From a virus, in the IMG/VR virus record IMGVR_UViG_3300017986_000179, positions 1 to 20,433 of that record: a DNA stretch of 20,433 bases. The stretch is one strand, 5' to 3'. Each line of letters opens with the position of its first letter. Position 1 is the stretch's first letter. Below, in pieces: positions 140 to 18,723 of the stretch. Under the pieces are notes generated by a model. It saw nothing but the letters and a program-made list of their open reading frames with translations, did no database searches and was not told the origin of the DNA. The translations under genes were made by a program, and so were the position numbers.

Positions 140-303
140 TTCTTTTCCTGTTCTTTCTTTGGCTTACGTCCGTAAAAACTTTTATATGAAATTTCTTCAG
201 TTCTTTCACCTGGTTTAAAATATTGTATTTTTCCGCCTTTGTCTAAAAAGTCCTGTAACTGTTTTTCAGTCATTCCGCTTTCTTTTGATTGTCTGTCCAT
301 CAT
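136..303 (-). CDS. Small conserved-looking protein, 55 aa, function unknown
   Basis: This 55-residue protein begins MMDRQSKESGMTEKQLQDF and ends in a Lys-rich tail (GRKPKKEQEKK). It has no membrane segment or cysteine pair. The central part (DFLDKGGKIQYFKPGERTEE) looks like a short helix followed by a strand with an invariant-looking KPG turn. I chose the ATG at 303 because it overlaps the stop of the exonuclease gene (ATGATG with TGA inside) and has a GGAG about 10 bases upstream. An in-frame ATG at 363 would lie well inside the exonuclease gene. It is sandwiched by ATGA overlaps between dexA-like and clamp-loader genes, so it is probably co-translated with replication functions. I do not recognise the family, and the ATG directly following (300) is an equally possible start. 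Confidence 0.8.
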   Translation of the reverse strand: MMDRQSKESGMTEKQLQDFLDKGGKIQYFKPGERTEEISYKSFYGRKPKKEQEKK

Positions 304-845
304 CGTTGTGTTACTCCAAAGTGTTTGTATGATTGTTGAACACACTTCGCTTGATAATAACAATCAGCTAATGCATTATGTAGTTCATCTTGAATTGCTT
401 TGCGTGGATCCTGAGGCATCATAGCAAACAGTGTACGACTGTCACGTATCTGCCAATAGTTCCAGGGTACAGGTTTTTCAGCTTCTTTGTACAAATGCTG
501 TAGTATTACAAAATCAAATGTAGGACCTTGACACCAAATGTAATCTAAACCTACACTCCATTTGTTTAATTGACGTAGCATCTCTTGTACACTTACACGA
601 TCTTCGTGATCACCAAATGCTTCGTCTTGAATTGCTTGCGGTTGCGTAGCCCACCAAGCAAGAGTATTATCGTCGATACTACGATTATAGTCTGTAGTTT
701 GTTCTTCTACATCACCACGTAGATATAATGGACTGTGCGGCTCAGCATCTGAAAATGGATCAAACTTAATAGCACCAAGGGTCATAACAACACTATCTGG
801 ATTAACTCCAAGTGTTTCTAAATCGATCATACCGTGTGTAGCCAA
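300..845 (-). CDS. dexA: DexA-like 3'-5' exonuclease (DEDDh family)
   Basis: The 181-aa product matches the T4 exonuclease A layout: IDLETLG with D8 and E10 (Exo I), WCQGPTFDF with D111 (Exo II; T4 has WCRGMSFDF), WQIRDSRT around 131-138, and H156/D161 in HNALADCYYQA (Exo III, DEDDh). These acidic residues bind the two metal ions for 3'-5' phosphodiester hydrolysis. It is somewhat shorter than T4 DexA (about 227 aa). The start is TTG at 845: an AGGAG lies 7 bases upstream, and the first ATG (codon 6) would leave too long a gap and sit tight against the Exo I motif. The gene follows a strong sigma70-like promoter set in an inverted repeat, and its stop overlaps the next start. Likely roles in T4-like phages are host DNA degradation or processing of 3' ends; the substrate here is inferred. 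Confidence 0.9.
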   Translation of the reverse strand: MATHGMIDLETLGVNPDSVVMTLGAIKFDPFSDAEPHSPLYLRGDVEEQTTDYNRSIDDNTLAWWATQPQAIQDEAFGDHEDRVSVQEMLRQLNKWSVGLDYIWCQGPTFDFVILQHLYKEAEKPVPWNYWQIRDSRTLFAMMPQDPRKAIQDELHNALADCYYQAKCVQQSYKHFGVTQR

Positions 846-851
846 AAGAAA

Positions 852-897
852 ACTCCTAACATTTTATATACATTATAGCGTATAAACTGCTAGGAGT
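852..897 (-). promoter_or_regulatory. Inverted repeat around the dexA promoter: candidate Shine-Dalgarno-masking hairpin or terminator
   Basis: In minus-strand RNA, ACUCCUAGCA (897-888) pairs with UGUUAGGAGU (861-852) over 10 bp with one G-U. An inner stem UAUAC/GUAUA (884-880 with 871-867) closes an 8-base loop. The 3' arm contains the AGGAG that serves the dexA start. RNA starting at the enclosed promoter lacks the 5' arm, so its ribosome site stays open; read-through RNA would mask it. The 3' arm is followed by UUUCUUUU, so the same element could instead act as an intrinsic terminator for the upstream operon. Confidence 0.6.
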
Positions 898-900
898 CAA
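872..900 (-). promoter_or_regulatory. Sigma70-type promoter for dexA-orf55-clamp loader
   Basis: Reading the minus strand, TTGACT (-35, 900-895) is followed by a 17-base spacer and a perfect TATAAT (-10, 877-872). The expected start is near 866-865, about 20 bases before the TTG start codon. This is the best host-type promoter in the window and starts 4 bases after the MazG-like stop codon. It would give early expression of the exonuclease and clamp-loader genes by host RNA polymerase. Confidence 0.82.
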
Positions 901-903
901 GTA

Positions 904-1269
904 CTATTTTAGGAATTTTGCCAATTCTGGACCAGTCCAACCTTCTGGTTTTAAAACTTTTCCATCTTCACGCTTGCGAACCTTACCTGTTTCTGGATCA
1001 ATTTTGGCAAAATTAGTACGCATAACTTCGTTCCACGCACCTTCGCCATCTGCTCCTAAAGAGTTAATGGCACCAATTGTGACAACAAGAATATCAACCA
1101 GTGCATCAAGTTGTTCTACAGCGTCTTGTGATTTAATAGCATCAGCAAGTTCACCGGCTTCTTCTTCAATTAATTTTAGGTACATACCATATTGATCAGT
1201 ATTAACCTTATCAACAGTTTGATCGCAAGCAATCATAAAATCTGTTTGATCTTTAAATGGATTTGTCAT
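904..1269 (-). CDS. MazG-like nucleotide pyrophosphohydrolase
   Basis: The 121-aa, mostly helical protein carries the MazG/HisE-superfamily metal-binding signature: EEEAGE (E35-E37, E40) on one helix and EQLDALVD (E52, D55, D59) on the next. Enzymes of this fold hydrolyse nucleoside triphosphates or related nucleotides to the monophosphate and pyrophosphate. The tail (NFAKIDPETGKVRKREDGKV, ending GWTGPELAKFL) is the one typically seen in single-domain phage versions. Marine phage MazG proteins have been proposed to influence host alarmone or nucleotide pools, but the substrate here is unknown. The ATG at 1269 has AGAGG 6 bases upstream. It follows the co-chaperonin gene by 9 bases, and its stop is 4 bases from the next promoter, so it closes an operon. 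Confidence 0.85.
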   Translation of the reverse strand: MTNPFKDQTDFMIACDQTVDKVNTDQYGMYLKLIEEEAGELADAIKSQDAVEQLDALVDILVVTIGAINSLGADGEGAWNEVMRTNFAKIDPETGKVRKREDGKVLKPEGWTGPELAKFLK

Positions 1270-2097: not shown

Positions 2098-2631
2098 TTA
2101 TCTCAAGAACTCGGTGTAGTCTAGTCCATATTGGACGGAATTAATCTTATGTACACCTATCAAATATAACACATAACTTGCAACACTTGATCCACGTCCT
2201 ACACCCCACACAATGTTGTTTTCACGCATAAAGTCAACTAAGTATATCATATATTGTAGTAAGTGTATCATTTTACGAGATTCAAATTCTCTATACTCTG
2301 CTGTAATTCTACTTATATTTTTTGGCCAGTCGCCTTTTTCTTGACACTTTTTAACAAGATATTCCCATACATTAAGTTCTTTATATTTGTCAGGCATAAA
2401 CCAATGTCCTTGACAAACTTCGTCAAACTCTTTTTGATTTACATTTAATGGAATATACCAATTTAATGGACTTAATCCTTGATCTTCTAATGCACTATTA
2501 AATTTTTCGGTCTCTATTTCTTTTTGACAGAGTACAACGTGTACTTTGTCTGAGTGGCCACCATATATCATATTAATAAGGTCGCGCCCTGTGAATCTAG
2601 GTATACCGAGTTCGTCTGTTTTCATTAGCAT
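2098..2631 (-). CDS. DnaE-like protein: fragment of the bacterial DNA polymerase III alpha subunit, no catalytic aspartates
   Basis: The last third of this 177-aa protein resembles the start of the DnaE palm. LQYMIYLVDFMRENNIVWGV (125-144) and GRGSSVASYVLYLIGV (145-160) correspond to the DnaE pattern of a helix, then GPGRGSGAGSLVAYALG. INSVQYGLDYTEFLR (163-177) matches DnaE DPLxxGLLFERFLN. In DnaE the next residues are PDxDxDF, holding two of the three catalytic aspartates; here the protein stops right after FLR. The upstream NVWEYLVKKC...AEYREFESRK also recalls the DnaE segment before the palm. The protein therefore cannot be a polymerase by itself. No Shine-Dalgarno sequence is visible before ATG 2631 or the alternative ATG 2625. 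It could be a decoy, a clamp or clamp-loader partner, or a relic. Confidence 0.7.
   Translation of the reverse strand: MLMKTDELGIPRFTGRDLINMIYGGHSDKVHVVLCQKEIETEKFNSALEDQGLSPLNWYIPLNVNQKEFDEVCQGHWFMPDKYKELNVWEYLVKKCQEKGDWPKNISRITAEYREFESRKMIHLLQYMIYLVDFMRENNIVWGVGRGSSVASYVLYLIGVHKINSVQYGLDYTEFLR

Positions 2632-9039: not shown

Positions 9040-18723
<9,684 letters not shown>

Follow-up and report, generated by a model that had tools for sequence, protein, structure and literature searches.

In IS10 and IS50, transcripts that come into the transposase genes from outside form a structure with the terminal inverted repeat that conceals the ribosome binding site (RBS), which RNA made from the internal promoter does not. 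In bacteriophage T4 the genes e, soc, 49 and I-TevI (also segB, and mobE of phage Aeh1) have an RBS that is masked in long transcripts, and a late promoter lies within the 5' strand of the masking hairpin (PMC3014915, PMC2988022). The extended start-associated sequences of Cluster K mycobacteriophages consist of a 13-bp repeat resembling a Shine-Dalgarno (SD) sequence with a separate 17-bp repeat pair upstream, and they are present in many copies per genome with a conserved sequence (PMC3203893). A search of the open-access literature for promoters located within the hairpin of a terminator or an RBS found no report matching the element described here. This element lies in a stretch of viral DNA of 20,433 nucleotides (the window), where a putative promoter of the host sigma70 type lies nested within an inverted repeat, the 3' arm of which is the SD of an operon's first gene, a dexA-like exonuclease gene (Table 1). 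We consider it likely that the element acts as a self-insulating promoter, the hairpin of which silences read-through RNA by masking the SD and usually also by termination.

On the minus strand, the intergenic sequence from the stop codon of the MazG-like gene (906-904) to the exonuclease start codon reads tacTTGACTCCTAGCAGTTTATACGCTATAATGTATATAAAATGTTAGGAGTTTTCTT. The promoter, TTGACT and TATAAT separated by a 17-nt spacer, has 11 of the 12 sigma70 consensus bases. The window contains one match to the pattern TTGAC-N-TATAAT-N-AGGAG (0.00 expected), and in viral contigs TTGACTCCT..TATAAT..AGGAGT gave at least 119 matches, compared with 5 for the scrambled TTGACTCTC control. A first-pass annotation had described a promoter nested between arms that pair over 10 bp with one G-U, with the SD in the 3' arm, and both the sequence and the predicted fold bear this out. 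An eleventh pair is formed by G898-U851, and an upper stem (886-878/871-863) extends the hairpin, leaving only the six bases of the -10 box as loop. The palindrome of about 55 bases is thus a near-continuous hairpin, longer and somewhat stronger than first described. The minus-strand segment 900-846 folds at -20.8 kcal/mol as compared to a shuffle mean of -6.8 (z = -6.49), with 0 of 200 shuffles as stable; over both strands of the contig, 4 of 8152 segments of 55 nt are equally stable, the element's own neighbourhood included (one overlaps it). No covariance model of Rfam 15 gave a match at E <= 1 in positions 700-1100.

Table 1. Features of the promoter-hairpin element and the adjoining genes in the window
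Feature	Position	Strand	Remarks
Co-directional upstream gene, MazG-like pyrophosphohydrolase	904..1269	(-)	3 nt between its stop codon and the -35 box
-35 box TTGACT	895..900	(-)	its ACT opens the hairpin 5' arm; TTGAC in nearly all relatives
5' arm ACTCCTAGCA	888..897 (A897-A888)	(-)	complementary to the SD region; not in promoter-started RNA
-10 box TATAAT	872..877	(-)	forms the whole apical loop when read-through RNA folds (predicted)
Transcription start	864..866	(-)	inferred from the -10 position
3' arm TGTTAGGAGT	852..861 (T861-T852)	(-)	pairs with the 5' arm
SD AGGAG of the dexA-like gene	853..857	(-)	within the 3' arm
U-rich tract UUUUCUUUU	844..852	(-)	directly after the stem, into the UUG start codon; intrinsic-terminator form
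dexA-like 3'-5' exonuclease	300..845	(-)	181 aa; TTG start (845-843); PF16473, E 1.5e-34; phrog_255 exonuclease

The exonuclease is 29% identical to T4 DexA, shares the PF16473 profile with it and matches PDB 8kel/8ken at an E of about 5e-06. For T4 DexA both host and phage DNA are substrates (PMC12153337). The name of PF16473 refers to an exoribonuclease, so the window enzyme need not act on DNA. Among the cultured-phage dexA matches listed, the best is below 40% identity, and in a genome collection we found one 67% match, located in a MAG contig where dexA lacks the element.

In predicted folds of window RNA starting at position 1000, 950, 910 or 900, opening of AGGAG costs 13.1-14.3 kcal/mol. 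Set against each other, read-through RNA requires 14.1 kcal/mol and RNA starting at 866-862 requires 4.8 kcal/mol, in line with the earlier claim that the SD is masked far more in read-through than in promoter-started RNA. The accompanying claim was that promoter-started RNA can be translated. This RNA does lack the 5' arm, as the first-pass annotation said, but its SD is not wholly free, and the 4.8 kcal/mol is explained by a weak local hairpin in which AGGAG pairs with CUUUU. Accessibility was also computed for 65 elements from relatives. For the dexA elements the median opening cost was 13.8 kcal/mol in read-through versus 1.6 kcal/mol in promoter-started RNA (n=42), and for those in front of a small membrane protein gene it was 13.8 versus 2.3 kcal/mol (n=23).

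We propose that RNA started at the promoter, being without the 5' arm, would leave the SD available so that the exonuclease is made, while RNA reading through from the co-directional upstream gene would carry both arms and form the long hairpin in which the SD is hidden. Most copies, that of the window included, have a U-rich tract after the stem, and there the hairpin may also end transcription; with masking and termination together, expression would come to rely on the promoter of the operon itself. A ribosome ending the upstream gene could hinder the folding, since in the window the upstream stop codon lies 3 nt before the -35 box and the ribosome would occupy the first part of the 5' arm.

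Relatives were drawn from IMG/VR by protein homology alone, with the small membrane protein and two exonucleases as queries, because choosing on arm sequence had to be avoided. The exonuclease relatives form two sets: where a promoter is directly upstream the hairpin is kept, and where it is missing the gene has an ATG start and other upstream sequence. The SD is paired to the arm in the -35/spacer region in 95 of the 98 distinct promoter-bearing elements; L044, L434 and L513 have the promoter with little or no SD masking. The SD pairing probability exceeds 0.9 in 87% of elements, as compared to 10% of 145 generic promoter-SD pairs from other viral contigs, and its mean drops from 0.95 to 0.63 when the 5' arm is shuffled. 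Swapping of 3' halves among relatives lowers this mean just from 0.95 to 0.92, because ACTCCT/AGGAGT is common to most copies, and the covariation information therefore sits in the inner pairs. At inner position 8 we observed C-G (32), G-C (16), U-A (15), G-U (11) and A-U (8), and the inner arms reach -7.5 kcal/mol with their own partners versus -3.7 with swapped ones. Co-variation of the arms in relatives was a check that the first-pass annotation had set for its reading, and it was found: compensatory double changes map to 36 branches of the exonuclease tree and 25 of the membrane protein tree, compared with 0-6 for slid pairings. In 12 long related contigs there are further near-consensus promoters accompanied by an SD, and the majority of these are without the hairpin. 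Taken together, these sequence comparisons indicate that it is the pairing, rather than the sequence, that is conserved across related uncultured phages.

In loci with a callable upstream gene, this gene is on the same strand and its stop codon lies a median of 8 nt before the element, and in 84 of 92 loci with a same-strand frame of >60 codons upstream the distance is at most 20 nt. These upstream genes are of many kinds in the relatives (MazG-like, GroES-like and others); in the window the order from the element is the MazG-like pyrophosphohydrolase, a GroES-like protein and a DNA polymerase III-like piece. The element stays at the head of the operon, either before dexA or, when the gene for a 52-56 aa membrane protein comes first and precedes dexA by about 170 nt, before that gene. 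It is upstream of a short first gene in 46 loci, two of which have a different 41-aa gene. The same promoter-in-hairpin design is found elsewhere, before a MazG-like gene (L159, L123) and before a DNA ligase gene (L134, L147), the latter a phage ATP-dependent DNA ligase copy with the tail GACCGUG and no U-tract after the stem.

The membrane protein (..GIGTTGATGIALMILHITG..GWAWP..GIGQENRK), whose gene separates the element from dexA in many relatives (L358-L437; e.g. L097), had no Pfam, PHROG or cultured-phage match. In L012, L020, L022, L034, L037, L042, L048, L049 and L057 a tRNA-like sequence, read by eye, replaces the promoter element directly 5' of dexA. The polymerase-like gene of the window (2098-2631, 177 aa) matches just one part of DNA polymerase III alpha (PF07733), and its product is 37% identical to a protein of PA5oct-like Pseudomonas phages, which suggests part of a split polymerase. 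Further along, the window encodes a 3221-aa tail fibre-like protein (9040-18705), whose N-terminus is of the T4 gp9/10 type and which has a match to the E1_FCCH domain, and an IscA/HesB-type iron-sulphur protein (PF01521, 19064-19477) adjoins the fibre genes. The T4-type capsid protein Gp23 was present in 1 of 9 long related contigs, and the label of a T4-like phage was dropped.

Of the other explanations, the one that survives best, and which we nevertheless think unlikely, is a plain intrinsic terminator of the upstream unit on which the next promoter is superposed to save space; the SD would then provide G-C pairs beside the U-tract and the masking would be incidental. In the window, a stable hairpin is followed directly by a U-rich tract, and T occupies 7 of the 8 positions behind AGGAG. 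A count of 6 T or more in these 8 nt is found in 100% of dexA elements (a set selected for one T) versus 0% of 180 other AGGAG-ATG genes, and the values are 84%, 79% and 45% in the unselected set. The T fraction of the SD-to-start spacer is 0.85 in the element, compared with 0.28 (A-rich) in 180 other AGGAG-ATG genes of the same loci, and the number of U rises with hairpin stability (rho 0.38 overall, P = 1e-4; 0.76 in the dexA1 (first) set). The U-rich tract is conserved, and intrinsic termination, already named as an alternative in the first-pass annotation, gains weight by this. A UUG start codon extends the U-tract, but the GUG copies have little U-tract. Among dexA genes with their own promoter element the start is TTG in 56, GTG in 5 and ATG in 7 (TTG/GTG in 61 of 68 loci), versus ATG in 93 of 93 loci without the element (Fisher P about 6e-37, relatedness ignored). 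In the loci compared, the switch between UUG/GUG when the exonuclease heads the operon and AUG otherwise thus appears as an association. A terminator as the sole function is countered by strong hairpins that lack a U-tract, in L372, L385, L364, L381, L367 and L417 (tails such as AUCUCU and AUUCUA) as well as in the DNA-ligase copy, and by borderline d'Aubenton-Carafa d-scores. The window scores +0.35 with the best of several stem ends and -7.1 with a fixed stem, and the medians in three sets are -5.5, +1.0 and -12.7. SD masking would seem to be a near-constant property of the element, and termination a frequent second property.

It is quite unlikely that the element is a timing device, in which late read-through from the virion genes is silent and production of the exonuclease stops while new genomes build up, as the first-pass annotation had proposed. 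The same strand of the window does carry fibre and baseplate-type genes upstream, and T4 is known to repress dexA translation by a different route, via RegA (PMC3014915). However, our results give this model no specific support. The immediate upstream genes are of nucleotide-metabolism or chaperone-like types (MazG-like, GroES-like) that differ among relatives, and TATAAATA late-promoter sites are no commoner in the window than expected by chance, with none at the element. The same device also stands before MazG and ligase genes, and the hairpin would insulate from any read-through, early or late.

Promoter dyads are often operators, and a repeat that is symmetric about the -10 box and overlaps the -35 box and start region could be bound as DNA by a phage or host repressor, but this is highly improbable here, as the inner arm letters are free to vary while pairing is kept with compensation, no fixed half-site sequence is conserved across relatives and the repeat is linked to the SD of the first gene. 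Moreover, opposite the fixed SD, U-G pairs (39 cells, two G positions) exceed C-A mismatches (10 cells, two A positions), which leans to RNA pairing on the coding strand, although a bias of C-to-T changes could contribute.

Returning to the self-insulating promoter, we lean, with more reserve, towards a general reading in which a terminator, a host-type promoter and an RBS are superposed in a palindrome of ~55 bp, giving a compact device by which a cassette placed behind any co-directional gene would answer only to its own promoter. Such a device would be widespread at the exonuclease operon of this group of uncultured phages and would recur before the unrelated MazG and DNA ligase genes. If true, this provides a rule, readable in sequence and with strong covariation behind it, for how a phage gene can be isolated from its neighbours' transcription at no cost in space, and the arrangement is that of T4 gene e, except that a host-type promoter replaces the late one. 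It would also offer a ready-made insulated part of promoter and ribosome site that can be tested in the laboratory, and one that is tied to a start-codon switch.

The element resembles the Cluster K start-associated sequences in having inverted repeats at the translation start region that recur before different phage genes. It was set apart from these fixed, sequence-conserved, many-copy repeats, as here pairing is conserved over sequence and there is usually one copy per contig. It is like an intrinsic terminator in its stable stem followed by a U-rich tract, and differs in the promoter in the loop, the downstream SD in the 3' arm, the borderline d-score and the absence of the U-tract in part of the family. 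In IS10 and IS50 the repeats are the terminal ones of a mobile element, whereas here the repeat is private to one promoter and RBS and heads a phage operon. Inheritance from T4 dexA was rejected, because that gene is preceded by the overlapping gene dexA.1, which leaves no room for such a device directly before it. With the T4 gene e type the element shares a promoter located in the sequence for the 5' strand of the SD-hiding helix, and the outcome, here predicted, that the short RNA is translated and the long one silent. It differs in having a promoter of the host sigma70 type, with the -10 box forming the loop of a near-continuous hairpin, in the usual presence of a U-tract and in the gene, an exonuclease. 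Since TTGACT-17-TATAAT stands in place of the phage late promoter (TATAAATA), we file the element as a variant, rather than a member, of the T4 gene e type.
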